In this document: one piece after another, positions 9,810-25,913 of the stretch
Layout of the letters: every line of letters begins with the position of its first letter
Position numbering within the stretch: position 1 is the first letter of the stretch
Source: a virus
Virus record (IMG/VR): IMGVR_UViG_3300031963_000801
Coordinates: 1 to 26,786 of that record
Direction: 5' to 3' (one strand)
Length of the DNA stretch: 26,786 nt
Translations under genes and position numbers: made by a program
The notes under the pieces: generated by a model
The model's input: only the letters and a program-made list of their open reading frames with translations
Database searches by the model: none
What the model was told of the DNA's origin: nothing

Positions 9810-9819
9810 GGAAAACTGA
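9810..9819 (+). promoter_or_regulatory. GGAAAACTGA late motif, copy 1
   Basis: Exact copy, starting two bases after the sigma-factor stop codon and ending exactly 21 nt before the GTG start of the portal gene. No good Shine-Dalgarno lies between it and the start. Confidence 0.7.
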
Positions 9820-9840
9820 GGCATCGAATAGTGGTGATCA

Positions 9841-11307
9841 GTGCCGCTGCTAAAATACGACCATCCGCAGAGTGACGCTGGGCTGCCGTCGTTTGTGCAT
9901 CCGGCGCTTGCCGATGTGCTGGACGAGCTTGAGGTTGCGGGTGATCTGTGGAAGCGGTTGAAGGGTGCGGCGGAGAAATATCTGCCCAAGGAACTGAAGG
10001 AACCGCCGAAGGCATATCAGGCGCGGTTACAACGTTCGACATTCACCAGCTTTTTTCGTGAAGGCATCGTTGCGTTTGCCGGCAGCCTGAGCCGGTTTGA
10101 ATGTCGCGATGCGCCGAAGTCCTTTATGGACAACCTGTCGAATATTGACGGGTCGGGGACGAGCCTTAAGGCGTTCATGATGATCGCTGATGCTTGGGTG
10201 TTGCGTGATGCGGGGTGTCTGCTGACGGTTGACATGCCAAAGGAGGCGCCGAAGGACCGCGCAGAAGAGGTGCGCATGGCTCGCCGACCGCATCTTGCCC
10301 AGGTGCAACGGCGGCATGTGTTGAACTGGCGCACCGAGGAGGTCGGCGGCGTGCAGGTATGCGTTGCCTGCACCGTGATGGAATGGGCTCAGGTTGAAGA
10401 TGGCGCCTACGGGATCAAGTACGAACCCCGCTACCGCGAGATGGTGGGAGGGAAGTGGCGGCTGCTGAAGCTGGAGCAGCAGGCAGAAGGAGCCAAGACA
10501 TGGCGCGTTGAAGAGGTGGACAAAGACACGTTCACCGACTTCCGCGGCAATGAGCTGCAGTATCCGCCGGTGGTGTGGTATGGCGCGACGCCGGACGGGT
10601 TCGGGATGGGCGAGCTGCCGATGAAGTCGCTGGGCGACCTGAACCTGGCGCACTTCCGCGAGTGGAGCGATAAGGCCGAGCAGTTGCATCGGACGGTGCT
10701 GATCACCCCATGGCGTGAGGGTGCGGCGCCAAGGTCGCCCGGCATGGTGTTGGGGCCCCATGGCGGGATTGAGGTGCCGAGTGGTGGGAAGGTGGGGCTG
10801 CTGGAGCCGTCCGGGTCGTCGCAGGACTACCACCAGAAGCAACTGGAGCACATCGAGAATCTGATTGATCGCCAGACGCTGGCGTTCCTGAGTGGTGGAT
10901 CGGCGCAGAAGACCGCAACGCAGAGCATCCTTGAGAGTGCGCAACTGCAGGCGACGCTGACCACGCTGTCTGAATCAAAGGGATCAGCGATGGAATCGAT
11001 CTATCGCCTGTGGGGTCAGTTCACCGGTGAGACGGTGGTGCAGGGTGCAGGGATCGACATGGCGCCAGGGATCGCTGATGCGATGGTGACACCGGAGACG
11101 CTGACGCTGGCCGACAAGCTCTACAACTCGGGCCTCATTTCCAGGGAGACGGTGGTGAGCCTGCAGCATCGCGCCGGGCTTTTGGGTCCTGGGCGGACGG
11201 TGGAGAAGGAGCTGGAGGTGATCAAGAAGGAGGAGCCGGTGCCGGCTAATGTGCCTGGGGTTGGGGATCCGGAGACGGTAGACTTCATGCCGCAGGGGGC
11301 GAACTGA
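9841..11307 (+). CDS. portal protein (DUF4055-like)
   Basis: This 488-aa protein is positioned right after terminase and sigma genes and before the MuF-type gene. Recognisable blocks include the early HPALADVLDELEVAGDLWKRLKGA, the YQARLQRSTFTSFFREGIVAFAG segment, WVLRDAGCLLTVDMP, LNWRTEEVGG, the central PPVVWYGATPDGFGMGELPM and HFREWSDKAEQLHRTVLITPW, and a C-terminal helical region rich in Q and E. These match the DUF4055 portal-like family. Portals form the dodecameric gate for DNA entry and exit and bind the terminase. The start is GTG; the next gene begins at the overlapping stop (TGATG). Upstream control is probably through the GGAAAACTGA motif 21 nt away. Confidence 0.85.
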   Translation: MPLLKYDHPQSDAGLPSFVHPALADVLDELEVAGDLWKRLKGAAEKYLPKELKEPPKAYQARLQRSTFTSFFREGIVAFAGSLSRFECRDAPKSFMDNLSNIDGSGTSLKAFMMIADAWVLRDAGCLLTVDMPKEAPKDRAEEVRMARRPHLAQVQRRHVLNWRTEEVGGVQVCVACTVMEWAQVEDGAYGIKYEPRYREMVGGKWRLLKLEQQAEGAKTWRVEEVDKDTFTDFRGNELQYPPVVWYGATPDGFGMGELPMKSLGDLNLAHFREWSDKAEQLHRTVLITPWREGAAPRSPGMVLGPHGGIEVPSGGKVGLLEPSGSSQDYHQKQLEHIENLIDRQTLAFLSGGSAQKTATQSILESAQLQATLTTLSESKGSAMESIYRLWGQFTGETVVQGAGIDMAPGIADAMVTPETLTLADKLYNSGLISRETVVSLQHRAGLLGPGRTVEKELEVIKKEEPVPANVPGVGDPETVDFMPQGAN

Positions 11308-11993
11308 TGGCTAGGCGATATGCGCGAGACAATCGCGGGCGGTTTTCGTCCACCGGTGCGACGGCACGCGGCGGGCGGCTGAGGACGGCGAGCGGGCAGA
11401 AGCGTCAGACGCAGACGCGGAAGATCAGCGCGAGGCCGGCGGGGACGATCGGGAAGGCCAGGGCGCCGAAGCCTGCGGGTCCGGCGAACAGCATCCGGCG
11501 CACCCGCGTGCAGCCGCTGGTGCAGCGTGCGAACAACGTGAGGCCGTATCGCCCGGCGACGTTTGACGGGAAGTTTGCACAGATCGACCGGCAGATTGAT
11601 CGCTCAATGAAGCCGCTAGTAGATGACATGCGAGCGATCAGCAACCGTGCCAAGGCGCTGAAGCCTGAAATCGACAAGATGAGCCGCCGGATTGAGCGGA
11701 CGAACGCACGGTCTATTTCCGACAGGCGGAAAAAGGGCATTGATGGTGAGATCGCTAGAGCGGAGCTTGGGGCGATGGGCACCAAGCCGGGCCGGAAAGC
11801 GATCCAGCGACGGATGGGCCGGGCAATGGATGCAGCAGCACGGGGCAGCAAGCCAGCACGGAAAGCAGTGAGGGTGTATGTGGATCAGTTGGCAGGGATG
11901 GGACCGGGAAAAATGAAGGGAGCAAAGAACAACCTGAGGCCCGGCCCGAGGAACACTGATGGACCACCAAAGCGTCGGCGGAAGCGGAAGTAA
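11307..11993 (+). CDS. basic virion-type protein with RDxxGRF N-terminus
   Basis: This 228-aa, very basic protein opens with MARRYARDNRGRFSS and GATARGGRL, a motif almost identical to that of the 46-aa protein encoded at 12126-12266. The middle has a predicted long helix (FDGKFAQIDRQIDRSMKPLVDDM ...), and the C-terminus is Arg/Lys/Pro-rich (GPPKRRRKRK). I do not recognise the family. Position between portal and MuF genes suggests a head-associated or DNA-contacting role, for example an internal protein. It is not plausible as a major capsid protein: too small, too basic, no HK97-like pattern. Translation is coupled to the portal stop (TGATG). Confidence 0.7.
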   Translation: MARRYARDNRGRFSSTGATARGGRLRTASGQKRQTQTRKISARPAGTIGKARAPKPAGPANSIRRTRVQPLVQRANNVRPYRPATFDGKFAQIDRQIDRSMKPLVDDMRAISNRAKALKPEIDKMSRRIERTNARSISDRRKKGIDGEIARAELGAMGTKPGRKAIQRRMGRAMDAAARGSKPARKAVRVYVDQLAGMGPGKMKGAKNNLRPGPRNTDGPPKRRRKRK

Positions 11994-12123
11994 GGTAACG
12001 GCAGTGGGTCGAATCCTGCGGCCGAAGCATGGCGAACCGCGTCGGCATCATGTGATCCGCGTTGGTGCTGATGGGAAAGCGCGGACGGTGGTGAAGCGCG
12101 ACCTGCCGGTGGTGGAGGGCTGA
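11959..12123 (+). CDS. small basic protein of unknown function
   Basis: This 54-aa ORF begins at an ATG overlapping the end of the previous gene, preceded by GAGGAAC. A second in-frame start, GTG at 12004, is preceded by AAGG and would give 39 aa. The shared core is GRILRPKHGEPRRHHVIRVG, followed by KARTVVKRDLPVVEG, with several His and Arg residues. It is not recognised. It ends three bases before the next small gene, so it is likely co-translated. Confidence 0.5.
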   Translation: MDHQSVGGSGSKVTAVGRILRPKHGEPRRHHVIRVGADGKARTVVKRDLPVVEG

Positions 12124-12125
12124 GG

Positions 12126-12266
12126 ATGGCACGCCGGTATTCACGGGACAATCAGGGGCGGTTCGCTTCCGTGGGTGCCACTGCTCGGGGCGGTCGGTTG
12201 AAGACTGCCGCCGGTAACACGCGGGCCAAGGCACAGCACTCACGCCGTCGCCGTAAGCCCAAGTGA
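12126..12266 (+). CDS. small basic RDxxGRF-motif protein
   Basis: This 46-aa protein (MARRYSRDNQGRFASVG, then ATARGGRLKTAAG, with a basic tail RRRRKPK) is a short paralogue of the N-terminus of the protein encoded at 11307-11993. The ATG is preceded by GGGCTGAGG, a good Shine-Dalgarno. Its stop overlaps the GTG of the MuF gene as GTGA. The RDxxGRF motif recurs at the start of many small phage proteins, but its function is not known to me. Confidence 0.65.
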   Translation: MARRYSRDNQGRFASVGATARGGRLKTAAGNTRAKAQHSRRRRKPK

Positions 12267-13267
12267 GCCCCACCGGCCCCCGTCAGCAGAAACTCGCCGA
12301 CGACTACGCCGCGGCGCTTGAACGCCTGGGCAACCGCTCGGCACGGGCCACCGGCCAGGCGCTGGAAGCCAGCCTGAATGAACTGCTGACGGATCTGCGG
12401 CGGTTCTACGCCGGGTTCAACGATCCGCAGTCGCCGTGGACCTATGAGTACAGCATCGGCGAGGCAACCGCCCGCTACAACACGCTGGTGCAGCAGGCGC
12501 AGGGCTTCATGCCGGAAGAACGCCTGGCAGCATTGCAGGCGGTCTATCAGCAGGATCTGGCCGCTGCCGCAAGCCTCGGCGCGGAGCTGAGCGGGAAGCT
12601 GATCAAGCTGGTAGATCGTGCCGCCGACACGTTCGCCGGTGCCAGCGAAGCTGCCGTCAAGGCTGCCGCCGAGATCACCAGCGCATACATCCGCGGCGAG
12701 ACGATGGCGTTCCGCAACACCCTGGTGCAGATCGTCACCCGTGGGGCATCGAAGGGCAGAGGGTTCCGATCGATCGAGATGGACATCCGCAAGGCGCTGC
12801 AGGGTGCGACGGATCCTGAGGGACTGACCCAGCGGATGGGGTTGAAGCAGCGTGCAGAGCTGATCGCCCGGTCAGAGCTGAGCAATGCGTACGTCAGGGC
12901 GCAACAGGAAACGGCGCGGGAAGCGGGGTACGACCTGGTGCGATGGGTGGCGACCACGGATGAGCGCACGTGCATGTTCTGCGGGTCAAGGCACGGGAAG
13001 ATCTACCGCCGGGAAGATGTGGTAGCGCCTGCGCATCCTCGCTGCCGTTGCGCCCTGGTCCCTGCACCTGAAGGCAGCGAGGAAGGCGATCAGGATGGCG
13101 AGTATTGGGCAAAGAGCCGTGAGGAGATCGTGGCGGAGATTGCGAAGGCGAAGTCGCAGGATCTGAACAAGGTATCTGCAGATCTGGCCAAGTATCTGAA
13201 GAAACCAACACCATCGGAACGGCGGCAGTTTCCTGGCATTGAGGTGGCGGTTCTGCCGGTGGCGTGA
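12263..13267 (+). CDS. MuF-type minor head / head morphogenesis protein
   Basis: This 334-aa protein has an N-terminal helical half and a C-terminal phage Mu gpF-like domain. The diagnostic part is RAELIARSELSNAYVRAQ near residue 200, then VRWVATTDERTCMFCGSRHGK (split here only for description: the CxxC is at ~237-240), and the closing AHPRCRCALVP near 255-265. Members of this family are minor capsid components near the portal, and often neighbours of the portal gene, as here. The GTG start overlaps the stop of the small upstream gene. The next gene begins 12 nt after the stop, where one would normally expect scaffold, protease or capsid genes; none are found. Confidence 0.88.
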   Translation: MSPTGPRQQKLADDYAAALERLGNRSARATGQALEASLNELLTDLRRFYAGFNDPQSPWTYEYSIGEATARYNTLVQQAQGFMPEERLAALQAVYQQDLAAAASLGAELSGKLIKLVDRAADTFAGASEAAVKAAAEITSAYIRGETMAFRNTLVQIVTRGASKGRGFRSIEMDIRKALQGATDPEGLTQRMGLKQRAELIARSELSNAYVRAQQETAREAGYDLVRWVATTDERTCMFCGSRHGKIYRREDVVAPAHPRCRCALVPAPEGSEEGDQDGEYWAKSREEIVAEIAKAKSQDLNKVSADLAKYLKKPTPSERRQFPGIEVAVLPVA

Positions 13268-13279
13268 GAAAATAGGGCC

Positions 13280-13489
13280 ATGACTGAACCGCTTAGGCTA
13301 TTCCTTTCCCTGCGTGCCGGCGTTGCCCTACGCGATGCAGAAGGCACCCGGCAGCTTCTACGTCGTGCTGCCACGGAGTTTGATCAGGGCGAAGGCGAGC
13401 GGATGCTGATCATGCTCACCCGCGGGCTGGATCCGGTGGCGAAGCAGTGGATAGCAAACCTGCTGGGGCCACGGAAAACTGCAGCATGA
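13280..13489 (+). CDS. small protein of unknown function
   Basis: This 69-aa protein (MTEPLRLFLSLRAG ... GERMLIMLTRGLDPVAKQ) is probably mostly helical. The ATG is 12 nt after the MuF stop, with AGGG just upstream. Its last codons form a 9/10 match to the late motif, and its stop overlaps the start of the next gene (ATGA). It is not recognised; position suggests a small head or connector accessory protein. Confidence 0.6.
   Translation: MTEPLRLFLSLRAGVALRDAEGTRQLLRRAATEFDQGEGERMLIMLTRGLDPVAKQWIANLLGPRKTAA
13473..13482 (+). promoter_or_regulatory. GGAAAACTGA late motif, copy 2 (9/10)
   Basis: GGAAAACTGC lies within the final codons of the gene ending at 13489 and 3 nt before the ATG at 13486. 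The single mismatch and the coding overlap make this the least certain copy. Confidence 0.45.
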
Positions 13490-13977
13490 GCCTCCCCACC
13501 CTGGACCCCCTGTGGCGCACGTCGCCGGATGATCGGGACATCATCCGGCAGTACGCGAGGTTGTCGGCAAGCTCGGCATCATTGACGGTGGTGACGGATC
13601 AGCTCAATGGTGTCGCCAAGGTGTCGCCGAGCACGGTGACGCGTGTGCAGGGAATGATTGATGAGATCGAAACGCTAGAAGCGGATCACGCCGATGCGGT
13701 ATCCAGTGGGACCGCGCATCTTGGGAACGTCACAAGCTATGAGGGTCCGGCGCCGGGGGTGAAGCTGAGCAAGGCCGATCGGCAGCGGAAGCTGGACGTG
13801 ATCGAGTGGGACACCGACCTGCTCAAGATCAAAACCACCAGCAGCGGCAGCGGAAGCAGCACGGCGGAAGGCGTGAGGTTGGCCAGGGTGGCGGAACTGA
13901 AAGACAGGATCCTGACGGCGGTGGGGTTAGATGATGCCAGCGGTGGGGATGGGACGTTTCCGGTGTATCGGAGCTGA
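13486..13977 (+). CDS. putative head-tail connector/adaptor protein
   Basis: This 163-aa protein starts MSLPTLDPLWRTSPDDRDI. An in-frame upstream ATG at 13447 lies inside the previous gene and is unlikely. It has helical segments (VTRVQGMIDEIETLEADHADA; LARVAELKDRILTAVGL) and a Ser/Gly-rich linker near residue 130. There is no firm family match. Its length and position, first of a run of 140-170-aa genes between MuF and tail genes, match head-tail adaptors of the HK97 gp6 class. The stop overlaps the next ATG (TGATG). Confidence 0.6.
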   Translation: MSLPTLDPLWRTSPDDRDIIRQYARLSASSASLTVVTDQLNGVAKVSPSTVTRVQGMIDEIETLEADHADAVSSGTAHLGNVTSYEGPAPGVKLSKADRQRKLDVIEWDTDLLKIKTTSSGSGSSTAEGVRLARVAELKDRILTAVGLDDASGGDGTFPVYRS

Positions 13978-14477
13978 TGGCCTCCCCCTTCGCTGAGGTC
14001 GGTAACGCCCGCCTCCTGTGGCTGCAGCCCGGGTCTGCACCGGCGAACTTCCGCCAGGGCCCTGCCGCGGTGAGCACCACGAGGGTCGTGATCGAAGCGT
14101 TCCTGCGGGCCGTGGTTCCCACCTCGCCGATGGGTTCTGCTGCAGTCGAAGGCCGGCAGTCGGTGGTGAACGCGGTGGATCGGCGCGTCACCGCATGGAT
14201 CATCCGGTATGCCACGGTCCCCACCGGCGCCGACTGGCTGGCGGCCGGCAGCGCCTGGACATGGACGGAAACCGGACTGCTGCCGGCGGGCCTTGGTGCG
14301 AGCCGTGCTGATCTGCAGTGCTACTGGGGACCGCTGCCCCCCAGCCTGGCCACGGGCCGGCTGGGGGTGTTCAACCTCGAGCAGGTCGGCGGGGACTACG
14401 GCACCGGCGGCATCGGTGCGGCGGTGCGTGCGGAAGCTGGGGACAGCATCATGGGATCGCTGCAGTTCGCGCAATGA
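13977..14477 (+). CDS. putative head-closure/connector protein
   Basis: This 166-aa protein is rich in small residues and aromatic blocks (LLWLQPGSAPANFRQG, WIIRYATVPTGADWLAAG, WTWTETGLLPAG, CYWGPLPPS). The pattern suggests a beta-rich connector, like stoppers or head-closure proteins, but I cannot name a family. It is translationally coupled to both neighbours (TGATG before, ATGA after). Confidence 0.55.
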   Translation: MASPFAEVGNARLLWLQPGSAPANFRQGPAAVSTTRVVIEAFLRAVVPTSPMGSAAVEGRQSVVNAVDRRVTAWIIRYATVPTGADWLAAGSAWTWTETGLLPAGLGASRADLQCYWGPLPPSLATGRLGVFNLEQVGGDYGTGGIGAAVRAEAGDSIMGSLQFAQ

Positions 14478-14908
14478 GGGTCCGGGTCAAAACCAGTCGA
14501 GCGCTGGGCGCTGCAGCACAGGCGGCGAGTGAGGCGGCGGCAAAGGCGGTGTTTGCGGAGTTGGCGGGTCGATTCCAGGATGCGCTGCGGAAACAGGTTT
14601 ATCAGTGGCCCCGTCAGACGATTAGGAGCAATGATCAAGTCGTTTATTCACCACGAAACATTATTGATACGGCTACCTTGGCGCAACAGCAGCAGGCCCC
14701 TAGGATCGAAGGCAGCCGGGCGATATATCGATGGACGGCACCTTATACACGGGCTGTATTCTTGGGCGCGAGACTGCGGAACGGCACCATCTTGCCACCT
14801 CGCAATGCACCGGCTGCTGTGCTTGGCACCGAGCCCGTGGCCGGCATCCCTGTTTATGACGCTCGTGCGCGGTTTCGGGAGGTGTGGCTTAAGCGGTTTC
14901 GAGGCTGA
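14474..14908 (+). CDS. putative tail-completion / HK97 gp10-like protein
   Basis: This 144-aa protein begins MRVRVKTSRALGAAAQAA. The first ~45 residues form a helix (EAAAKAVFAELAGRFQDALRKQVYQW) and the rest is strand-rich, with YRWTAPYTRAVFLGARLRNG and a final ARFREVWLKRFRG. This helix-then-beta organisation with a closing R-x-x-W-L block resembles HK97 gp10-type neck proteins. Its start overlaps the previous stop as ATGA. The stretch 14590-14770 is more AT-rich than surrounding genes and may reflect exchange. After its stop comes the third GGAAAACTGA copy. Confidence 0.6.
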   Translation: MRVRVKTSRALGAAAQAASEAAAKAVFAELAGRFQDALRKQVYQWPRQTIRSNDQVVYSPRNIIDTATLAQQQQAPRIEGSRAIYRWTAPYTRAVFLGARLRNGTILPPRNAPAAVLGTEPVAGIPVYDARARFREVWLKRFRG

Positions 14909-14910
14909 TG

Positions 14911-14920
14911 GGAAAACTGA
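14911..14920 (+). promoter_or_regulatory. GGAAAACTGA late motif, copy 3
   Basis: Exact copy, two bases after the TGA of the preceding gene and exactly 21 nt before the ATG at 14942. The intervening sequence holds no purine-rich ribosome site close to the ATG. Confidence 0.7.
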
Positions 14921-14941
14921 GGGGAACCCGCCTTTCCTGCT

Positions 14942-15253
14942 ATGGCTATTCGTCGTGATTCCCGAGGTCGCTTTGCTGGCGGCGGCGGTGGTGGTGGTGG
15001 TGGTGGTAAGCCGAAGCTCGTAGGCTCAGGCCGTGTCAAGCAGCCTAACCGCCTAACCTTCCGTGGAACCGATGCGGAGGGCATGGCGGTCTTTGGAAAT
15101 GCAAAGAAGCCAAAGGGCAAGAAAATCCCTGCCAATACACCACAGACAGCAGCTAAATCCAGGGTGGCCAAGCAAGTAGCGGAAGCGAACGCATTGATCA
15201 AGCGGCAGAATCAACAACTTAAAGGCGGGATGAAGGGAGTGAAGTGGCGTTGA
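14942..15253 (+). CDS. basic glycine-run protein with RDxxGRF N-terminus
   Basis: This 103-aa basic protein begins MAIRRDSRGRFAGG and continues into a run of ten glycines. It then has a Lys-rich stretch (NAKKPKGKKIP) and a C-terminal helix (KQVAEANALIKRQNQQL). It shares the RDxxGRFA start with the proteins at 11307 and 12126. The glycine run is encoded by mixed GGC/GGT codons and may vary in length. Function unknown. The motif copies before (14911) and after (15261) make this a one-gene unit. Confidence 0.65.
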   Translation: MAIRRDSRGRFAGGGGGGGGGGKPKLVGSGRVKQPNRLTFRGTDAEGMAVFGNAKKPKGKKIPANTPQTAAKSRVAKQVAEANALIKRQNQQLKGGMKGVKWR

Positions 15254-15260
15254 CCCGCAG

Positions 15261-15270
15261 GGAAAACTGA
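15261..15270 (+). promoter_or_regulatory. GGAAAACTGA late motif, copy 4
   Basis: Exact copy, seven bases after the preceding stop and exactly 21 nt before the ATG at 15292. Again no strong Shine-Dalgarno is present near the start. Confidence 0.7.
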
Positions 15271-15291
15271 GCAGACAGCCGCGATGGCCCG

Positions 15292-16038
15292 ATGAAATCC
15301 CTGCCCTTCCACGTCAAACCAAGACAGGAAACCAGAGACGTCGGCAACCCTGATACCGGCATCCTCCGGTTCCCGGTGTTCCTGTCGCTCACCCTGGCCG
15401 AACGGATCCAGGTTCGTGAGGTTGACCGGTCGGATGATGTGTTCAAGGCGACGGCGGATCTGGTGATCAGCATCGTGGATCGGCAGTCGCCGGACCCGCT
15501 GCCTGAGGGATATGACCGGCAGCAGGAAATCGCTCGGGTGTATGCCATCGTCAATCGACTGATTGAATCCCCTCAGGATGATGCCGTAGGTCTACCGCCT
15601 GAGGAGGTGGTGATCATGGTGCTGTTTGCGGATGACATCAGCGAGGTCCGGCGCCAGAGCGAGCAGAACGAGGAGGCCAAGATCGTCCGCGCCTGTACGG
15701 CGATCATCGGTAGCCGTCTCGAGGGATACGACGACTGGAGCGACGACGACACCAGCAAGCTCCCTGAGGATCTGATCAGCGCGGTGTTTGATTTCTATCG
15801 GGCCGAGCTGGCGCACATGAGCGACGCCCCCGACCTGGATCAACTGCGGAAGAACCTGGAGGATGCATTGGGGGAGTTGCAGATGGCCGATGGCAGCCGG
15901 CCCCCGAACCCGACTGGGGAGCCATCTTCTGGCGACTCCGCGACGCTTTCCCCGGAGCCCGAGAGTTTCATCCCGAGCGATTCGCCCATCTCCCCGTCGC
16001 CTACATTTTCCAAGCCGTCGAGGCGGCCGAGGCGTTAG
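15292..16038 (+). CDS. putative tail assembly chaperone, zero-frame product (G-like)
   Basis: This 248-aa protein has a convincing first ~195 residues: VKPRQETRDVGNPDTGILRF (beta start), VFLSLTLAERIQVREVD, then acidic helices (VFKATADLVISIVDRQ, PPEEVVIMVLFADDISEVRR). The remaining ~55 residues (PPNPTGEPSSGDSATLSPEPE ... SKPSRRPRR) are low-complexity and look like the wrong frame of the overlapping downstream coding segment. Tail assembly chaperones of long-tailed phages are made as a short form and a -1 frameshifted long form that coat the tape measure before tube assembly. The gene precedes the tube gene rather than following it, which is a less common order. The start ATG is 21 nt after motif copy 4. 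Confidence 0.72.
   Translation: MKSLPFHVKPRQETRDVGNPDTGILRFPVFLSLTLAERIQVREVDRSDDVFKATADLVISIVDRQSPDPLPEGYDRQQEIARVYAIVNRLIESPQDDAVGLPPEEVVIMVLFADDISEVRRQSEQNEEAKIVRACTAIIGSRLEGYDDWSDDDTSKLPEDLISAVFDFYRAELAHMSDAPDLDQLRKNLEDALGELQMADGSRPPNPTGEPSSGDSATLSPEPESFIPSDSPISPSPTFSKPSRRPRR
15868..15906 (+). other. candidate -1 ribosomal frameshift window
   Basis: Two homopolymer runs fall where the zero frame (from 15292) and the -1 frame overlap: TTG-GGG-GAG at 15868-15876, where a tRNA on GGG can slip back onto GGG, and CGG-CCC-CCG at 15898-15906. A further GCC-CCC-GAC occurs at 15826. None is a canonical lambda-type heptamer, so the exact site is uncertain, but the frame relation (-1) is what the chaperone mechanism needs. 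Confidence 0.45.
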
Positions 16039-16547: not shown

Positions 16548-16746
16548 CCTGGCCCTCGGCTTCGGTGACGGATGGGAAATACCCGATGGAGATCTGCCGG
16601 CCGCGATACCAGATCCGGCCCTGCCATGGCCGCTGTCGGTTCCTGGGGCGGTAGGCAACACCTGGGGGCAGGGTGCCGGGCGGAATCATCATCAGCAGGT
16701 TACGCGGCAGGGACTGCTGAGGGAGACAGAACAGTTTCCCTCGCAT
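16426..16746 (-). CDS. AP2/ERF-type DNA-binding protein on the minus strand
   Basis: This ORF of up to 106 aa has a core at residues ~30-70 (GVAYRPRNRQRPWQGRIWYRG then RQISIGYFPSVTEAEGQ) that follows the AP2 domain pattern: three strands with W/R contacts, then GYF and an alanine/glutamate-rich helix. AP2 domains in phages occur in homing endonucleases and integrases, but no HNH is attached here. Its ATG shares the CATG palindrome with the start of the tail tube gene, and its C-terminal tail runs antisense to the chaperone end. A second start, Met-Met at codon 19, may be the real one. No clear ribosome site is visible for either. It is probably a moron-type insertion or a remnant of a homing element. 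Confidence 0.6.
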   Translation of the reverse strand: MRGKLFCLPQQSLPRNLLMMIPPGTLPPGVAYRPRNRQRPWQGRIWYRGRQISIGYFPSVTEAEGQVNRLRRVIQQWGERPGDPPQLRPLLQRSRAPRAAQSLPPR

Positions 16747-17817: not shown

Positions 17818-18075
17818 TCACATCAGCGGATCATCCCAAGGCGGCACCGGATCAGACTCTGCCATCTGCTCACGGGCTGCCGCGGCAGCAATCAGCGACG
17901 GTGCGCCGAGGTTCTGCCGCATGGCCAGCAGGGTCATGGCCTTCTGGGAATACCACGCCCGGAGCAGTTGCTTCGCCATGGTCCGCAACGCCACCACATC
18001 GTTCGTGCCGTCGATCGTTCGGACCATGCGTTCCTGCTCGAACTGCTGCCCGATCGTCATCCCCATCGGTTCCAT
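17818..18075 (-). CDS. 85-aa helical protein on the minus strand (unknown)
   Basis: The sequence starts MEPMGMTIGQQFEQERMV and looks like a real small protein: amphipathic helices (ALRTMAKQLLRAWYSQKA, MTLLAMRQNLGAPSL), an alanine run, and an acidic end (PVPPWDDPLM). Alternative starts at codons 4 and 6 are possible; the motif-like IGQQF would remain in all. The QQF...R opening followed by helices recalls, weakly, the small NblA-type proteins of cyanobacteria and their phages, but I would not assign it. It runs opposite to the tail genes, convergent with the tail tube terminator and divergent from the gene at 18142, so it is likely a separately controlled moron. Confidence 0.55.
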   Translation of the reverse strand: MEPMGMTIGQQFEQERMVRTIDGTNDVVALRTMAKQLLRAWYSQKAMTLLAMRQNLGAPSLIAAAAAREQMAESDPVPPWDDPLM

Positions 18076-18110
18076 GCGAGGCCGGCGGTATTTCGGTCAG
18101 TGTTCCCGTA

Positions 18111-18120
18111 GGAAAACTGA
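18111..18120 (+). promoter_or_regulatory. GGAAAACTGA late motif, copy 5
   Basis: Exact copy located in the divergent gap between the minus-strand gene (starting 18075) and the ATG at 18142, exactly 21 nt before that ATG. Because no plus-strand gene ends here, this copy shows the motif belongs to the downstream gene's leader rather than to 3' ends. Confidence 0.75.
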
Positions 18121-18141: not shown

Positions 18142-18576
18142 ATGACCCTCCCCACCGACGCGCTCGGCGTCTATGACCTCCTGGCCGCGGATGTCACCCT
18201 CGCGGCACTGCTGGGGACGTACCTCACGGCGCAAGGCACCACCATGCCGGCGATCGCTACCCTCTGGCCCGGTGAATCCCTCCCAGGCGGCACCGTCGCC
18301 CGTGGCGTCGAGGTGGTCATCGCCCGCGGCACCACCGGCACCAACGAGCCGGACCTCACCGATGGCGGCACCATCGGTCGCACCATCAGGCTCTATGCCA
18401 CGCAATGGGAACCGGTGAGCGGTGCGCAGAACCTTGAGGCCGCCGTTGCCCGTATCGGTCGGATCCTGCCCGGTGCGACATGGCAACCTGTAAGCCTTCC
18501 TGATGGGTTGACCGGACTCGGGCAATACGCGATCCGGTGGGAGCAGTCTGAAGCCGTTGTCTGGCAGGAAAACTGA
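18142..18576 (+). CDS. putative minor tail / tail-completion protein
   Basis: This 144-aa protein begins MTLPTDALGVYDLLAADVTLAALLG. It has helix-beta organisation with GVEVVIARGTTGTNEP, TIRLYATQWEP, LEAAVARIGRILPGA and a closing YAIRWEQSEAVVWQEN. The architecture is compatible with tail terminator or completion proteins (lambda gpU/HK97 gp10-like), though these usually lie before the tube gene. GGGGAAAG precedes the ATG. Its stop codon is the TGA contained in motif copy 6. Confidence 0.6.
   Translation: MTLPTDALGVYDLLAADVTLAALLGTYLTAQGTTMPAIATLWPGESLPGGTVARGVEVVIARGTTGTNEPDLTDGGTIGRTIRLYATQWEPVSGAQNLEAAVARIGRILPGATWQPVSLPDGLTGLGQYAIRWEQSEAVVWQEN
18567..18576 (+). promoter_or_regulatory. GGAAAACTGA late motif, copy 6
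   Basis: Exact copy whose last three bases are the stop codon of the preceding gene. It ends 20 nt before the GTG start of the tape measure gene; AGGAAGG lies between and can serve as ribosome site. Confidence 0.65.
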
Positions 18577-18596: not shown

Positions 18597-21596
18597 GTGT
18601 CTGATTTCCAGATCTCAGTAGACCTGGATTCCCGTGGCATCCTCTCCGCGTTCCGGGAGATCGAGGCCCAAGCTCAGGCCACCGGCCGGAAAGTTGGCCT
18701 CGGCATTGAAGATCCCCTTAACAGGTTCGGCAAGCGGTCCATCGCCGCGTTGTCGCAGGAGCTGGCGCGGCTGCAGAGCCGCCAGGTGCGCCTCAACGTG
18801 GACAGTTCCGCGTTCGCCAAGACCGGCGCGAAGATCCGCGAGATCGAGGGCCTGATTCAGCAGGTCAACCGCCGCCAGCTTGCCATCAACACCGACCCGC
18901 GCTCGCTGGTGGTGATGCGGCAGAGGGTGGCGGACCTCACCGGTGAGCTGGAAAAGCTGCGAATCGGTTCGCCGGCCTTTAAGCGGCTGCAGTCGGACAT
19001 TGCCGGTGCGACAAAGGAACTGGAGCGAGCGGAGCGGGCAGCGGGGACAGCCAAGAACGCATTCGGTGGTCTGGTGGGTGTGCTTGCTGGCTTCGGTGCC
19101 GGCGCTGCACTGGTGGGGTTCTTGAAGTCATCGGTCGGGGAAGCGATCGCGCTTGAGACCACAACCCGCAGGCTTACCAACACCCTCGGCGAGCAAGGTG
19201 CCGCCGGTGCCCTGGCGTTCACCCGGGGCCTTTCGGATCAGCTCGGCCTTTCGTTCAAAGTCCTCTCCGGCAGCTTCGCATCCTTCACTGCTGCAGCGAC
19301 CGCGGCGAACGTGCCGATCACGGTGCAGCGGGATCTGTTCGCTGCGGTGGCCAAAGCGGGGCAATCGCTCGGGCTGAGCAATGACGAGGTGAACGGATCG
19401 CTGCTGGCGCTGCAGCAGGTTGCATCGAAGGGCACGGTGCAGATGGAGGAACTGCGGGGGCAGCTCGGGGAACGGCTGCCGATCGCGTTCGCTGCTACCG
19501 CGCAGGGCCTGGGCATCACGTCGAAAGAGCTGATCAAGCTGGTGGAATCCGGCCGGCTGACGGCGGATCAGTTTTTCCCGGCCCTCACCAAGGGCCTGAA
19601 CGATCTGACCAAGAGCGCGGGCGGTGCGGAAACGACGGCGCAGAAGCTGGCGAAGCTGGAAAACGCGTGGGTGAACTTGCAGACGCAGTTCGGGCAATCT
19701 GCACTGCCTGCCGTGACAGGCTTTGTAACCAAGCTGACGGAATCACTCAGGGAGCTTGAGGTGCAGCAAAAGAAGCTGGATCTCAACAAAACGTTTGGCC
19801 TTGTCGGTGTAGAGGCTGAGCAGCTTGTCGGCACTCTGGAGCAGATCCAGACGCAATACAATCTGTCATGGCAAGAGGCCAAGAACCTGCTGAACGAGCA
19901 GATCAAAAGCGCAGGAGCAGCAAAGAGTACGTTTGGCATCCTGAATCTGAGCGGGCAGCAGTTTGGGAAGATTCAGCTCGGACTGATTGATGGTGCTATC
20001 CGGTTCCGCTTGGCCAATCGGGATGCGGTCGCGGAAACGAAAGCGCAGGAAGCGGCGGCGGCTGCACTCCTGGCGCAGCAGCAGAAGCTGAACGAGGAAA
20101 AGCAGAAAGAGCTGAGCGCGCAGGCCGCCATCGCCGACGCCGTGACCACCCTGGCCGACGCACAAGGCCGCGCCGCGCAGGGTGCCGCCAGTCTCGCCGT
20201 CTCGCAGCGTGATGCGGTGCTGTCCTACAGCTCTGCGGTGCAGAGCGTCGAACAGAGCCGGTTCGACATCGCCAAGTCGTTCAACCAGTTTGAGCTGAGC
20301 AAGCTGCAGGAACGCGGCGCGAGTGAGGCGCAGCTGCGGGCAAAGCGGAAGGAAGGCGAAGCGATCGAACTGGCGGCCCTGCAGTCGCGGATCCGACAGC
20401 AGGAGTTTTCACAGAAGGTCGAACTCGACACCCTGGCGATCAAACAGCAGGCGGCCCGGCTGGAGGCTGATCAGGCCCTGCGGGGTGCGGTGATCAATGA
20501 GCGGAAAGCTGCCCTCGCCCTCAGCCAGGCGGAACTGATCACCGATCAGCAGAAGCGGGCCGTGGCGGTCGAAACCGCACGCCTCACACTGGAGGCCGCA
20601 TCACTGGACCGGCAGGGTGCGGAAGCGAAGTTTGCGGCACTGGCCAAGCTGCAGCCCTTGGAGGCCGCGACGGTGTTCGCCACGCAGCAGGCGGCGCGGA
20701 ACCAGGAGGCTGCCGCTGCTGCAGCCCTCGGCTATGGCGTCGCCGTAGATGGCACGCTGACCAAGATCCGCGGCGTCGCCGGGTCGTTCCAGGGCCTCGC
20801 CACTGCGACCGGCCTCGCAGCAGATGAGCAGGGCCGGCTGGCGGCGCTTGCGGCACGGACGGGGCTGGAAGCCAAGATCGCGGCCGATGGAACGGTGCAG
20901 ATCGGGCAGGCGATCAAGGGCGCCCAAGGCGGCGCCAACACCCTCGCCGGCAGCTTCACCAAGGTGGGCGATAAAGCCCCGGTCGCCGCGCAGGGTGCAA
21001 GGGACTTCGCCGGGTTCCTGTCGAAAGGTCAGCAGTTCGCCAAGGGCATCAGCGATCAGCGGATGGATACCGTGGTGGGTCGTGCAGCCGGGCAGGCGCA
21101 GGGCCTCGCCGGACAGATGGGCGCTGCAGCTCGTGCAGCGGATCAGTTCTACCGCACCCTCGCCGCTGCATCAGGACTTCCCGGCGCACGGTGGGCAGGC
21201 GGCCCGGTGGAAGCCGGCGGCAGGTATCGCATCAACGACGGCCCCGGTGGCCGCAGCCTCGGGCAGGAGGCGTTCCTGTCCAGCAGCGGCCAGCTCAGCC
21301 TGATCAAACGGCCGGCAAACAGCCTATGGAACGCCCCCAGTCGTGGCCTGGTGATTCCTGCTGCCATCACGGAAGAGCTGAAAGCTGCAGGTGCTGTGGG
21401 TGCCGGCCGTGCAGTGTCACGGGTGATGCCTCGCGCAGCCGGCGGCGATCCTGCGACGGCAGCCCTGGCGGTGGAGGTGTCGCGGCTGGGGTCTGAGGTG
21501 CGGGAACTGAACCGCAAACGCTGGGACGTTCACGTGAGGTTGCAACAGGACGGCAGCGGGCTCCGGATGCAGAAGCTCCTCAACGGCATCCGCTGA
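18597..21596 (+). CDS. tail tape measure protein
   Basis: This 999-aa protein has an N-terminal helical part (FREIEAQAQATGRKVGLGI ...) and a hydrophobic segment at residues ~154-175 (FGGLVGVLAGFGAGAALVGFL). A conserved tape-measure domain at ~180-335 includes GTVQMEELRGQLGERLPIAF and LVESGRLTADQFFPALTKGL, matching the TIGR02675-type tape measure N-terminal domain. A long Ala/Gln/Glu-rich coiled-coil region lies at ~480-720. By the usual ~0.15 nm per residue the tail would be near 150 nm, the siphovirus range. The segment near residues 380-470 is coded by slightly AT-richer DNA and may be a swapped module. The start is GTG with AGGAAGG upstream. Confidence 0.93.
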   Translation: MSDFQISVDLDSRGILSAFREIEAQAQATGRKVGLGIEDPLNRFGKRSIAALSQELARLQSRQVRLNVDSSAFAKTGAKIREIEGLIQQVNRRQLAINTDPRSLVVMRQRVADLTGELEKLRIGSPAFKRLQSDIAGATKELERAERAAGTAKNAFGGLVGVLAGFGAGAALVGFLKSSVGEAIALETTTRRLTNTLGEQGAAGALAFTRGLSDQLGLSFKVLSGSFASFTAAATAANVPITVQRDLFAAVAKAGQSLGLSNDEVNGSLLALQQVASKGTVQMEELRGQLGERLPIAFAATAQGLGITSKELIKLVESGRLTADQFFPALTKGLNDLTKSAGGAETTAQKLAKLENAWVNLQTQFGQSALPAVTGFVTKLTESLRELEVQQKKLDLNKTFGLVGVEAEQLVGTLEQIQTQYNLSWQEAKNLLNEQIKSAGAAKSTFGILNLSGQQFGKIQLGLIDGAIRFRLANRDAVAETKAQEAAAAALLAQQQKLNEEKQKELSAQAAIADAVTTLADAQGRAAQGAASLAVSQRDAVLSYSSAVQSVEQSRFDIAKSFNQFELSKLQERGASEAQLRAKRKEGEAIELAALQSRIRQQEFSQKVELDTLAIKQQAARLEADQALRGAVINERKAALALSQAELITDQQKRAVAVETARLTLEAASLDRQGAEAKFAALAKLQPLEAATVFATQQAARNQEAAAAAALGYGVAVDGTLTKIRGVAGSFQGLATATGLAADEQGRLAALAARTGLEAKIAADGTVQIGQAIKGAQGGANTLAGSFTKVGDKAPVAAQGARDFAGFLSKGQQFAKGISDQRMDTVVGRAAGQAQGLAGQMGAAARAADQFYRTLAAASGLPGARWAGGPVEAGGRYRINDGPGGRSLGQEAFLSSSGQLSLIKRPANSLWNAPSRGLVIPAAITEELKAAGAVGAGRAVSRVMPRAAGGDPATAALAVEVSRLGSEVRELNRKRWDVHVRLQQDGSGLRMQKLLNGIR

Positions 21597-21601
21597 GCGC
21601 C

Positions 21602-21611
21602 GGAAAACTGA
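21602..21611 (+). promoter_or_regulatory. GGAAAACTGA late motif, copy 7
   Basis: Exact copy five bases after the tape measure stop, only 3 nt before the ATG at 21615. No alternative start exists about 21 nt downstream, so spacing differs from the majority and resembles copy 2. Confidence 0.65.
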
Positions 21612-21614
21612 GTC

Positions 21615-22364
21615 ATGAGCGTCACGCTGGCCGGGCAGACAATCTCGCGCCTGCAGGCCCAGCCTTGCGGGTGGCAGGACACTGATGTTCGTGCCGGCCT
21701 TGTAGCGCGTCGGTGGTCGGTCGTCGGGCGGGTGCGTGCCGCGCAGTGGATCGCGATATGGAACGCGTTTGAAACCTGGCAAGCGGCGCGGATCAATGAC
21801 GCGCCGACGATGGCCAGCCTGGCGGTCGGCACCACGATCTCATTCTCGGGATCCTCCTACGGGCGCACATGGACGAACGTCCCCTGCTGGTTCACCGGCC
21901 CGCCTGAAGGCCAGGCGACGGGCGTATTCATCACCGTCTCATTCGAGTTGGTGGCCGCCGCCGATGCCCTGGCGGTCATGCTCAGGCAGGAGGAACTGAA
22001 CCGGCTCGAAGATGCCGCGCTCCTCCCGAACTACGGCACCTATTCCCTCGGCGGCGTCACCCTGACGCTGCTGGACGAACCGGACGGGTTTGAAGACGGC
22101 CCGACGATGGGCCTGGCGGCCACCGGAACCGGGATCGTGCAGGGGCCACGGAAAGCGACGCAGGTCAAACAGATCAACGGATGGTGCGCACCATCCAACA
22201 AATCGACCCTGATGACCTGGTACGCCAACGCCGTGCAGACCCGACCGACGACCGGATCATGGTGGCCCATCACTGAACCGCAGTTTTCGCAGGATCGGCT
22301 CCTCGTCAATGGCGCCATGGTCGAACGCCTGATCGTTGCCGTCACCCTGAAGCTGACGCCGTGA
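21615..22364 (+). CDS. putative distal tail protein
   Basis: This 249-aa beta-rich protein begins MSVTLAGQTISRLQAQPCGW. Blocks such as RRWSVVGRVRAAQWIAIWNAFETW, SYGRTWTNVPCWFTGPP and WWPITEPQFSQDRLLVNGAMV suggest a two-domain tail-tip protein. Its place directly after the tape measure and before a hub-like protein is that of distal tail proteins, which close the tube and anchor the tip. No specific family motif is certain. The stop overlaps the GTG start of the next gene (GTGA). Confidence 0.6.
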   Translation: MSVTLAGQTISRLQAQPCGWQDTDVRAGLVARRWSVVGRVRAAQWIAIWNAFETWQAARINDAPTMASLAVGTTISFSGSSYGRTWTNVPCWFTGPPEGQATGVFITVSFELVAAADALAVMLRQEELNRLEDAALLPNYGTYSLGGVTLTLLDEPDGFEDGPTMGLAATGTGIVQGPRKATQVKQINGWCAPSNKSTLMTWYANAVQTRPTTGSWWPITEPQFSQDRLLVNGAMVERLIVAVTLKLTP

Positions 22365-25300
22365 CGGTAGACGTTCGCTGCACTGTCGTCACGGACCGGG
22401 GGATCAGCACCACCGGATCGATCTCTGAGGACCACATTGATACGACGAACGTGCTCGCCCGGGTGCGGGGCACGATCGAGTTCGCCGGCATCTACAACAT
22501 GGCCCGCGGCACCGCGGTCAACGTCGCCTACACCGTGCCGGGCTTCAATCAGGTAACCCGGTTCCCGCGGCAACTGTGGGTGCTGAGCAGCAAGGTGGAT
22601 CCGTTCGCTGAGATCACCACCACGGAAGTCGGCTGCAGGCTCACCCTCATGGGCGATCTGCGGCCACCGGATGAGGTGCAGGCTGCCGACGCGGATCCGG
22701 AATTGCCGGCGAACATGCAGGGCCAGATCCCGCTGCCGATCTACGCCCGGGACGTGCTGGCCGATTGCCTGAACAAGATCGGCCTCACCGCTGCCGCCGG
22801 CAATACGGCGCTCGTGAGTTCGTTCCTGCAGGAGCAGTTCGACACCAGCGCCGGCTATGTCCAGGTGATCAATGATCTGCTCGCGTCGGAATCCTGCTAC
22901 GGGTTCGTCAATGCAGCCGGCCAGTTCGTGGTCCGCAAGATCCGGGACGCCGGCAGTGTTGCCGCGGTGCTAACGCGGGATGCCCTGCTGACGATGGAAG
23001 GGATCGAAGGCGGGCCGCCGCCTGCTGATCAGATCCGGGTCACATGGGACGGTGCGGTGCAGTCGCCTCCAGGGCTGGAACTACCGGAAATTCCGGTGTT
23101 ACCGGAACTGCCGGAAGTTTCGAGCATCATGATCAACGGCGTGGCGATCAGCCCTGAGCAGAAGGCCACGCTGGACGCCAAGGCGGCAGAGATCGCTGCA
23201 GAGCAGAACCTGCCGCTCAGCATTGCCAAGGGCATCGTCTACGAAAGCATCAGGTCGCAAGGCGCCACGATCGGCGCAGGCGGTGCACTGGCTGCGTCCA
23301 CCTCTCAATTCAATGACGGCATCAGCGGCAGCAATGTCCAGGGTGCCAGCTATTCGGATCAGAGCCGGCGGGTTGATGACTACAACCAGCCTGGAACCGA
23401 TGACCCAGGCAATCCTGGAACGCCCGGCGGGCTGCTCAACTGGACGTATGAAGAAAATATCTCATCCCCGCAAACCTTCAGGCAATCCTATGTGAAAGAG
23501 GTTGGCGGGACGACCGTAGACGCGGTTGACATCGTGGTGTTCGCCTCTAAGTCCGTCTCCACCACCACGTTTGAAGATGTCAGCTACATCGATCTCGAAG
23601 GGAAGGTGCAAACCGAAAGCGTAGCGGTCACCCGCGAGACGATCACCGATAACTGCGTAGGACCGATCAACCCGACACGGTGGAAATCGAAGCTGGAAAA
23701 CGGATCCCCGGCGCGGGCGGCCGATCTGGTGCAGTCGCGTTCGCGCACCACGTTTGATTATACCCCCACCAAAGACGGGCTGCGGACGCTGCAGGAAGTG
23801 ACGGAAGAATACGAACCTATCATCGGATTTGGTGGCCGGCTGGGGATCAAGAACTGGGTCGGGATTGACCTGGGCTTTGCCGAAGTGCTCGTCAGCCGTA
23901 CGGAAACCATCTACGCGACAAGCGAAACCACCGTATTCGGCAACAGCGGAGCCCCGATCGGCTCGTTCGATCGCACCAAAACCACCGTCAATCGCTGGCT
24001 TGCATGGGGTGCGACGCAGGAAGGCACGCATGGCGCCGGCATTGTCGCCCAAGCGCTGGAGGTGCTGGAAGATGCGCCGAGGATCGCCGGCATCTACGAA
24101 CTGGTCGACGCCTGCACCGCTCTGGTATTCGACGGGTCAGAGGTGCGCATTTCCCAAGGTCGCGGCATCGTGCAGAGTCTCCCCCCGCGGCAGGATCAGC
24201 TCCGCGATCGCCTCACCCGTAACACCCCGGGCGGCAGCGGGTTCACCTCGCTCAACTTCTCACCCACCGGCACGCCAACAGGCACCGCACGCTATCTGCT
24301 CCCCTATCCAGCCGACGACACCGTGCAGGGCGTCGAGGTTGACCCGGTGACCCTGCAGCCGCAGGTAGTGCCGGGGAACGTGCAGGAGCAGGCGCGGCAG
24401 TTCGGCTTGACGCAGAACTACCTGGCGTATGGCCACGCGAACGGGGTGGCAATCACGACCGAGATCCGGAACCTGCCATCCGAACCGCTGGGGACATTCT
24501 GCATCGATGCCGCCGGGGTGTCGGCCGTGTTCCGGTCCAACGGCCAATCCTGGGCATGGGGCCCCGAGGGCATGATCGTCGGCGCTGATGCGTTGCTCCA
24601 TGGCACCGCGGGCACGTATGCCGCGCCTGAGTTTGACGACTGCTGGGTGCCGGTGCCGGTCGCGATTGATGACCTGGTGGCCGCTGCATCGGTGACGACG
24701 AACTCAAGCCCGGCACCAGCGAACACGATCACCACGCCCGGAGGGTTTGACCCAGTGAACCCGGGCAGCCTGTGGGGCACCCTGCCGACGAATGGAACCG
24801 ACGTGCCGGCGCAGGTGCGATCGATCGCGGTGGTGATCGAGCCGCGGAATGAACGGGTGGCGATCAGGGCCACAAGTCAAACCGGCGTGACCATCCGGGA
24901 ATACGACTACCCGCTGAATCTGGGAACTGAGGTGATCCAGGCGGTCACCCTCACCAGTGTCGAACTGCCGGTGATCGTTGCCCTGCCGCTGACGACCATC
25001 GCGGTAGGCCCGGTGGCGCCGCTGGTGTATCAGCCGGCAGAGATCACGTTGCCGCTGACGACTGTGACGGTCACGGCGCCAGAACCGGAGGTGTTGGAGG
25101 TTACCTCCGTGGTTTCGCTGCCGCTGACGATCATCACGGTAGGACCGATCGCGCCGGATGTTGCTACGAGCGTGGTGGTGGTGGACTTGCCGCTTACCAC
25201 GATCACGGTGGGCACACTGGAGCCAACGGTAAGCGAGATTGGGCCGACGACGGATCCCAATTTCTCCAGCGTTTCCCTGCTGCTGCCCTGCAACGGTGTA

Positions 25301-25897
25301 GACAGCAGCACCACGTTCACAGACGCAAGCGGCAACGCCGTTGCCATCACGGTGTTTAATGGCGCCAAGATCAGCACAACCCAGAGCAAGTTTGGCGGGG
25401 CGTCTGCCTTCTTCGATGGAACAGGGGACTACTTGCGGACGATGACAAACTCCACCCTGTTTGACTTCTCTAGTGGGGCCTTTACGGTTGAACTGTGGTT
25501 CTATCAGACGGGATCCAAGCGGGGACACCTGATCTCATACAGAGAGGCAGATTGGCGAATGGAAGTCGGGCCCAATCAGGAGGTCTACTGGGTTACGCCG
25601 TTTACTGCGCGGATTACGTCGGCTTCGGGTGTTGCCCCACTGAACCAGTGGAACCATTTGGCAGCGGTCAGCGACGGCACAACGACCACCCTTTACTGCA
25701 ACGGCACGGGCCAAGGCACCACGACATCCAATCCATTCGCCGGGGCCGGCGGTAGTACCGGGATCTACATCGGCCGCAACCCAGCGACCACCGCACGGGA
25801 CTTTAACGGCTACATGGACGACATTAGGGTAACCAAAGGAGTTGCTAGGTACACCGCCAACTTCACCCCGCCCACGGCGCCGTTCCCCACCTCCTAG
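22361..25897 (+). CDS. tail tip hub/receptor-binding protein with LPLTT repeats and C-terminal LamG domain
   Basis: This 1178-aa protein has a first ~240 residues that resemble a baseplate-hub fold (LARVRGTIEFAGIYNMARG, VVRKIRDAG, GIEGGPPPADQIRVTWDG). A Pro-rich linker (LPEIPVLPELPEV, ~240) and a Gly/Pro linker (~343-358) separate it from a central region. Residues ~874-965 hold four tandem 22-23-aa repeats beginning LPLT. The last ~210 residues are a LamG/concanavalin-like lectin domain: SAFFDGTGDYLRT, FTVELWFYQTGS, WNHLAAVSDGTTTTLYCNG, IGRNPATTARDFNGYMDDI. LamG domains bind surface glycans, so the C-terminus is probably the host-recognition part. The GTG start overlaps the previous stop. 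Confidence 0.82.
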   Translation: MTVDVRCTVVTDRGISTTGSISEDHIDTTNVLARVRGTIEFAGIYNMARGTAVNVAYTVPGFNQVTRFPRQLWVLSSKVDPFAEITTTEVGCRLTLMGDLRPPDEVQAADADPELPANMQGQIPLPIYARDVLADCLNKIGLTAAAGNTALVSSFLQEQFDTSAGYVQVINDLLASESCYGFVNAAGQFVVRKIRDAGSVAAVLTRDALLTMEGIEGGPPPADQIRVTWDGAVQSPPGLELPEIPVLPELPEVSSIMINGVAISPEQKATLDAKAAEIAAEQNLPLSIAKGIVYESIRSQGATIGAGGALAASTSQFNDGISGSNVQGASYSDQSRRVDDYNQPGTDDPGNPGTPGGLLNWTYEENISSPQTFRQSYVKEVGGTTVDAVDIVVFASKSVSTTTFEDVSYIDLEGKVQTESVAVTRETITDNCVGPINPTRWKSKLENGSPARAADLVQSRSRTTFDYTPTKDGLRTLQEVTEEYEPIIGFGGRLGIKNWVGIDLGFAEVLVSRTETIYATSETTVFGNSGAPIGSFDRTKTTVNRWLAWGATQEGTHGAGIVAQALEVLEDAPRIAGIYELVDACTALVFDGSEVRISQGRGIVQSLPPRQDQLRDRLTRNTPGGSGFTSLNFSPTGTPTGTARYLLPYPADDTVQGVEVDPVTLQPQVVPGNVQEQARQFGLTQNYLAYGHANGVAITTEIRNLPSEPLGTFCIDAAGVSAVFRSNGQSWAWGPEGMIVGADALLHGTAGTYAAPEFDDCWVPVPVAIDDLVAAASVTTNSSPAPANTITTPGGFDPVNPGSLWGTLPTNGTDVPAQVRSIAVVIEPRNERVAIRATSQTGVTIREYDYPLNLGTEVIQAVTLTSVELPVIVALPLTTIAVGPVAPLVYQPAEITLPLTTVTVTAPEPEVLEVTSVVSLPLTIITVGPIAPDVATSVVVVDLPLTTITVGTLEPTVSEIGPTTDPNFSSVSLLLPCNGVDSSTTFTDASGNAVAITVFNGAKISTTQSKFGGASAFFDGTGDYLRTMTNSTLFDFSSGAFTVELWFYQTGSKRGHLISYREADWRMEVGPNQEVYWVTPFTARITSASGVAPLNQWNHLAAVSDGTTTTLYCNGTGQGTTTSNPFAGAGGSTGIYIGRNPATTARDFNGYMDDIRVTKGVARYTANFTPPTAPFPTS
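24983..25255 (+). repeat. four tandem LPLT-x-x-x-V coding repeats
   Basis: The units begin at 24983, 25049, 25118 and 25187, spaced 66, 69 and 69 bp. Each encodes LPLT(T/I)-x-x-V followed by a Pro-Glu or Pro-Val stretch. DNA identity is highest in the first ~20 bases of each unit. They form a probable beta-stalk or spacer before the LamG domain. Confidence 0.8.
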
Positions 25898-25903
25898 TCA
25901 CCG

Positions 25904-25913
25904 GGAAAACTGA
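25904..25913 (+). promoter_or_regulatory. GGAAAACTGA late motif, copy 8
   Basis: Exact copy six bases after the stop of the hub gene and 23 nt before the GTG at 25937. No Shine-Dalgarno is seen near that GTG. Confidence 0.68.

Follow-up and report, generated by a model that had tools for sequence, protein, structure and literature searches.

A conserved decamer ahead of late genes in a cyanophage-related virus record: a probable single-element promoter for a phage sigma factor

A recurrent decamer ahead of late genes

We focus here on a ten-base word, GGAAAACTGA (hereafter the box), that recurs ahead of late genes in IMG/VR record IMGVR_UViG_3300031963_000801, a 26.8-kb virus record that was analysed over its whole length and is referred to as the window. 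The window carries genes for a primase, a terminase, a sigma factor, a portal, a minor head protein, a tail tube and a tape measure, and its portal is 32–35% identical to the portals of Synechococcus phages S-CRES1-3 and S-CBS2 and of Prochlorococcus phage PSS2. A whole-DNA similarity search of the window against phage records gave no match, and a pattern scan with the portal protein alone retrieved no viral relatives; viral relatives were retrieved by pattern scans with the tape measure, the tail tube and the protein encoded from 21615. Scans of bacterial genomes, which could have pointed to the host, returned neither a prophage relative nor the back-to-back pattern of boxes described below.

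The exact word occurs seven times on the forward strand of the window and not once on the reverse strand, and the reversed-order pattern is absent as well. Together with a copy at 13473 that matches at nine of ten positions (GGAAAACTGC), these are the eight copies listed by a first-pass annotation of this DNA, far above what chance would yield; their positions hold, and re-measurement of the distances from box to start codon gave the same values (21 nt in four cases, 20 and 23 nt in one case each and 3 nt in two; Table 1). When one mismatch is allowed, the window contains 14 sites against 0.78 expected, and none of 100 shuffles reaches 14; the matches at 7882, 11907, 11950 and 23695 on the plus strand and at 19568 on the minus strand were set aside as chance or intragenic. 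The annotation had placed all copies on the plus strand, which is true of the exact ones. A ninth box, GGAACACTGA, again with nine of ten bases, lies on the minus strand at 18106–18097, 21 nt ahead of the minus-strand ATG of a divergent gene at 18075, and box orientation therefore follows the downstream gene and not the genome strand. The box at 18567 includes, as a TGA within the motif, the stop codon of the preceding gene, and the box at 13473 overlaps the 3′ end of the open reading frame (ORF) 13280–13489. Late genes that have no box mostly overlap or closely follow the preceding gene. As to the identity of the genes, the portal and tape measure labels of the earlier annotation are borne out by family searches, which also support the minor head and tail tube assignments; those of chaperone, connector and tail-completion protein are not, and the distal-tail label given to the 21615 gene is without a family match.

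Since the 26.8-kb record may be incomplete, whole-genome counts were made on relatives. Relative A (IMG/VR 3300034061_003450, 56 kb), whose proteins are 53–90% identical to those of the window, has eight exact copies of the word, all forward and all within 3360–25180, in its late region, with none in the other 31 kb. Four of these stand at orthologous places (before the portal, the tape measure, the 21615 gene and the 25937 gene), and the one-base variant GGAAAACTGC precedes the orthologue of the 15292 gene; the spacers between box and start diverge between the window and relative A, but the box is kept. Relatives that had the genes and lacked the motif were what the first-pass annotation named as evidence against its proposal, and the relatives retain the motif. 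On a wider scale, dialects of one box, GG[AC]A[ATC]NCTRR, stand before late genes in some 100 related contigs and in four cultured phages, S-CBS2, S-CRES1, S-CRES3 and PSS2, and in more distant relatives they read GGAAACCTGA, GGCAACCTAG, GGCAAGCTAG and GGCAACTTGA; the boxes of the cultured phages were located with a weight matrix built from the relatives' dialects. With late and early borders drawn by us from the annotation, the box precedes 11 of 28 late and 0 of 45 early genes in S-CRES3 (p = 6e-6) and 15 of 42 late and 3 of 47 early genes in S-CBS2 (p = 0.001), and a reverse-complement control yields 0 and 2 late-gene matches, respectively. The orientation bias extends to full contigs; PSS2, for instance, has a forward-to-reverse ratio of 17:2 and S-CBS2 one of 20:2. 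In addition, the ribonucleotide reductase genes of S-CBS2 (L083 13347) and S-CRES3 (L151 6543) have weaker variants, GGCATCCTAA and GGCATTCTAA, 21 nt before the ATG, which suggests that this gene may likewise be late-driven.

Table 1. Boxes and associated genes in the window. Distances run from the end of the box to the start codon; near (proximal) boxes are those with a distance of 3 nt.
Feature	Coordinates	Strand	Downstream start and distance	Remarks
Sigma factor gene	8957..9808	+		Sigma-70 region 2 at residues 43-112; SigF/SigB-like; PHROG sigma factor; putative reader of the box
Box GGAAAACTGA	9810..9819	+	Portal, GTG 9841, 21 nt	+1 predicted near 9823; relative A also has a box at this site, in this distance class
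Box GGAAAACTGC	13473..13482	+	ATG 13486, 3 nt	Near class; ATG is the predicted +1 (leaderless); orthologue likewise near class in other phages
Box GGAAAACTGA	14911..14920	+	ORF 14942-15253, 21 nt	
Box GGAAAACTGA	15261..15270	+	ORF 15292-16038, 21 nt	Relative A: GGAAAACTGC, 23 nt
Divergent 85-aa gene, no assigned function	17818..18075	-		Conserved in relative A, where the homologue has its own minus-strand box GGAAAACTGC 22 nt upstream
Box GGAACACTGA	18097..18106	-	ATG 18075, 21 nt	Back to back with the 18111 box, 4-nt gap
Box GGAAAACTGA	18111..18120	+	ORF 18142-18576, 21 nt	Orthologues elsewhere mostly in the near (predicted leaderless) class
Box GGAAAACTGA	18567..18576	+	Tape measure, GTG 18597, 20 nt	Same 20 nt in relative A
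Box GGAAAACTGA	21602..21611	+	ATG 21615, 3 nt	Near class; ATG is the predicted +1 (leaderless); 3 nt also in relative A
Box GGAAAACTGA	25904..25913	+	ORF 25937-26374, GTG, 23 nt	24 nt in relative A

Start-codon classes, the sigma factor and divergent pairs

The placement of start codons relative to the box was analysed over 312 non-redundant sites of the clade, with offsets counted from the first G of the box. At 33 of these sites, or 10.6%, an ATG stands exactly at offset 13; the background is about 3 for any given offset, and permuted motifs have an ATG there in 1.5% of sites (tail 5e-18). GTG at the same offset occurs at 4 sites, which is background. Few starts are found between offsets 13 and 25, beyond which a second, broad peak at offsets 25–34 contains both ATG and GTG. 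The ratio of ATG to GTG is unequal between the two classes (p = 5e-5): the near class, which spans 12 gene families, uses ATG only, whereas the far class is mixed. Leaderless mRNAs, with AUG at the 5′ end, would be expected to prefer it strongly over GUG. Within the far class (59 sites), the dinucleotide CA occupies the offset of the near-class ATG in 21 sites, compared with at most 11 at any other offset (tail 1e-8). The same gene can belong to either class in different phages. Tape measure genes have ATG when the offset is 13 and GTG when it is 29–30; orthologues of the 18142 gene have ATG at offset 13 and, in three relatives (B, L091 and L089), GTG at 31–34, and the copy in the window has ATG at 31.

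Because the ATG peak of the near class and the CA of the far class share one offset, we read the fourteenth base as +1. The simplest account is that near genes would be leaderless, that far genes would have leaders of about 12–21 nt and that leaders of 1–11 nt would be avoided; from the CA enrichment and the ATG peak, we infer a start 6 bases after the conserved T. The 3-nt copies would fit leaderless mRNAs, not the short leader that had been suggested for the motif as a whole.

The sigma factor gene of the window ends two bases ahead of the first box. Its product matches Pfam PF04542 (2.2e-9), the best solved structure being Bacillus subtilis SigF (1l0o, 6e-11), and a Pfam search finds no region 4 in it. 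Nor does Pfam find region 4 in any of the late sigmas tested, although the same search detects it in the second sigma of relative A, and 19 of 22 aligned sigma homologues end after region 3. On the DNA side, the position-wise information content of far-class sites between −45 and −15 reveals no −35 partner, no position rising above 0.16 bit, and the late region of the window contains no sigma-70-like promoter (TTGACA / TATAAT-like), compared with 2.6 in shuffles. The dialect of the box tracks the sigma clade. In S-CBS2 (L083 6833–7565), the annotated sigma (206 aa) looks truncated, and its last part, at 7437–7565, resembles the S-CRES1 sigma when translated in a different frame, which suggests a frameshift or a sequencing error.

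Boxes that lie close together are arranged divergently in 19 pairs, convergently in one and in tandem in two, the commonest gap being 0, followed by 9–11. In the tightest form, 26 bp separate two start codons and are filled by two boxes and their 3-nt tails, as in CAT-GGT-CTAGGTTTCC abutting GGCAAGCTAG-GGC-ATG (L018, around 3046). The strict 26-bp pattern is present in four contigs of the viral collection, two of them already in the analysed set. Abutting boxes can, as predicted from this layout, form a 26-bp bidirectional leaderless promoter.

A putative late promoter and its alternatives

We consider it likely that the decamer is a single-element, −10-like late promoter for the phage's own sigma factor, with +1 at base 14 of the motif. 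The first-pass annotation had left the choice between a −10-like element and a translation or RNA-processing signal undecided, and the comparative evidence favours the former. First of all, there are two discrete classes of start codon, and the far class has a CA initiator, no −35 element is seen and the sigmas mostly have no region 4; the promoter is for these reasons favoured over a translation signal. Second, the near class uses ATG only and boxes occur in divergent back-to-back pairs, which favours the promoter further. The decamer would be the sole core element, extended −10-like and spanning about −13 to −4, and would be read by host RNA polymerase carrying the phage SigF/SigB-type sigma, with no −35 box read. 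Transcription would start at the fourteenth base from the first G. An ATG exactly there, 3 nt past the decamer, would give a leaderless mRNA, and a start codon 25–34 nt from the first G would leave a leader of 12–21 nt and allow ATG or GTG to be used. Every box would open its own transcription unit within the late cluster. Transcript starts at the boxes, recognition of the box by the sigma and the leaderless nature of the near class are all three what we infer from sequence comparison. With less confidence, though on balance we favour it, we further propose that a single decamer sets both the transcription and the translation start, such that the first base of near-class transcripts would be the A of ATG, head-to-head boxes would constitute a 26-bp bidirectional promoter, and one and the same gene would be leaderless in some phages and leadered in others, GTG being used only where there is a leader.

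The box could also be a promoter element read by another factor, be it another sigma of the phage, a group 3 sigma of the host or an activator that the phage encodes. A second sigma gene is indeed present in relative A, S-CBS2 and PSS2, and the pairing of sigma and box is one of co-occurrence only. However, the second sigma of relative A contains both region 2 and region 4, and its promoters should include a −35 box. A SigF-like sigma in which no region 4 can be recognised, on the other hand, is found together with the box again and again in the clade, and its architecture suits a single-element promoter. We regard a different reader as unlikely.

Rather less probable still is an mRNA element that would act in translation initiation, guiding ribosomes to the start codon in the manner of the Start-Associated Sequence of cluster K mycobacteriophages. 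The location of the box just upstream of start codons and the lack of a clear Shine-Dalgarno sequence in most of the genes would agree with such a role, and in the near class the first bases of the word could serve as a weak GGA. A ribosome-guiding element, on the other hand, does not account for a start distance that is bimodal (13 or 25–34) and, in the near class, exact to one base and confined to ATG, nor for the CA that is fixed at the near-class offset in far-class sites, which have no start codon there; about half of the far-class boxes, moreover, begin with GGC, which has no match to the anti-Shine-Dalgarno. The 26 bp between divergent starts also leave no space for promoters except inside the opposite gene, and any RNA-level element would therefore require promoters there.

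An RNA-processing or stabilization site, at which long late transcripts would be cut near the word to free individual mRNAs, seems very unlikely. Boxes do sit at the junctions between the co-directional genes of the late cluster, oriented the same way with respect to the gene, but genes on the minus strand come with a box of their own next to or close by the plus-strand one. Transcription initiation, moreover, explains better why CA occurs at an initiator-like position and why the late region has no sigma-70 promoters. The least probable reading of all is that of a repressor-binding or silencing site, similar to the cluster A mycobacteriophage stoperators, with which the box would share its asymmetry, its place in short intergenic gaps and its single orientation relative to transcription. 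Stoperators are not known to require a fixed start distance or an initiator; the box shows both and is found mainly at late genes.

Several observations nevertheless weigh against the decamer being a promoter for the phage sigma. The major capsid gene has no box in S-CBS2, S-CRES3 and PSS2, nor does the tail tube gene of the window, and strong expression would be expected of such genes. The decamer opens with GG and not with an AT-rich base. The sigmas of the window and of relative A carry a C-terminal extension of about 100 aa, in which an AlphaFold model of the sigma (mean pLDDT 66) places helices, and in a Foldseek comparison most of the chain can be aligned to full sigmas; judging from these models, the extension in the window sigma may be a degenerate region 4. 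The correlation between dialect and sigma clade is confounded, because common descent alone could explain it, and the box counts on uncultured relatives use simple ORF rules rather than curated gene calls. As a separate observation on the boxless tail tube gene, an imperfect stem (GAGGGA ... TCCCTC) at 16717–16744 abuts its ATG, and a similar one is present in relative A.

Other repeats and comparison with known systems

Between the primase and the terminase small subunit, the window contains dense direct and inverted TGTTACRCC / GGYGTAACA repeats at 6139–6450, iteron-like in appearance and possibly a replication origin or a regulator-binding array; an alternating purine-pyrimidine run (CACGTGTGTGCGTGTGTGCGTGCATGTGCGCG...) lies in the same intergenic region at 6270–6320. 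On the minus strand, 993–1796 encodes a phosphoadenosine phosphosulfate reductase-like protein. Two other frequent words were set aside: TTGTCCACTAA in S-CRES1, which stems from a single cluster of local repeats confined to about 110 bp, and GAGGTTGGCG in relative A, which comes mostly from one tandem array. At 34249–34818 of the relative A contig (L079 14249–14818), a 15-bp unit is repeated in tandem (GAGGTTGGCG...) over about 570 bp, and the opposite strand would encode a pentapeptide-repeat protein. In S-CRES1 (L084 23507–23700), a cluster of TTGTCCACTAAA / TGGACA repeats is followed by an AT-rich stretch and is origin- or partition-site-like.

The mechanism proposed for the decamer is of a known kind. 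No description of the GG[AC]A[ATC]NCTRR box was found in the open-access literature searched, and what appears to be new, relative to that literature, is the box itself, its spread in cyanobacterial siphoviruses including PSS2, the coincidence of +1 and ATG, and the minimal divergent promoter. For cultured phages, the box predicts start sites to the base: at the A of the ATG for the S-CBS2 portal gene (box 66316, ATG 66329) and for P-SS2 gp094 (box 85692, ATG 85705), and 13 bases past the first G for far boxes such as that of S-CBS2 gp030 (box 21541). It would also allow leaderless and leadered versions of one late gene to be compared as they occur in nature, would offer a bidirectional promoter of very small size, and can assist late-gene calling in contigs of uncultured cyanophages.

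The late promoters of T4, TATAAATA, are single −10-type boxes read by gp55, a phage sigma that does not read a −35 element, and require gp33 and the sliding clamp gp45. The present box likewise is a single −10-type element before late genes, but the word is unrelated. The gp36-dependent middle/late promoters of phiEco32 (tAATGTAtA) consist of a single element with no −35, are read by a sigma that lacks region 4 and start 6–8 bp downstream (PMC8948821). The present box is also a single element with no −35 and a phage sigma as its putative reader, and the start predicted here would lie 6 bases past the conserved T; the differences lie in the word GG[AC]A[ATC]NCTRR, the cyanobacterial phages, the SigF/SigB kind of sigma and the start codons at the predicted +1. 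Cyanomyovirus Ma-LMM01, on the other hand, uses late promoters that are SigA-like and in two parts, and has no gp55-type phage sigma (PMC5780444); these too are cyanophage late promoters, but here a single element is seen. The Start-Associated Sequences of cluster K mycobacteriophages are short asymmetric repeats before starts, mostly in one orientation, with AGGAG at the position of the ribosome-binding site (PMC3203893). The box resembles them as a short asymmetric repeat directly before starts and mostly in one orientation, and differs in having no AGGAG Shine-Dalgarno core, two discrete distances and an initiator. Finally, the group 3 sigma of P-SS2 (ORF 003) is encoded by a homologous gene that adjoins terL, and the box precedes head, tape measure and baseplate genes of that phage, although the main text of the P-SS2 paper contains no description of it. 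This sigma was expected to have a regulon yet to be identified (PMC2784084), and the box provides a candidate target sequence, open to test, for the group 3 sigmas that cyanobacterial siphoviruses carry, that of P-SS2 among them.

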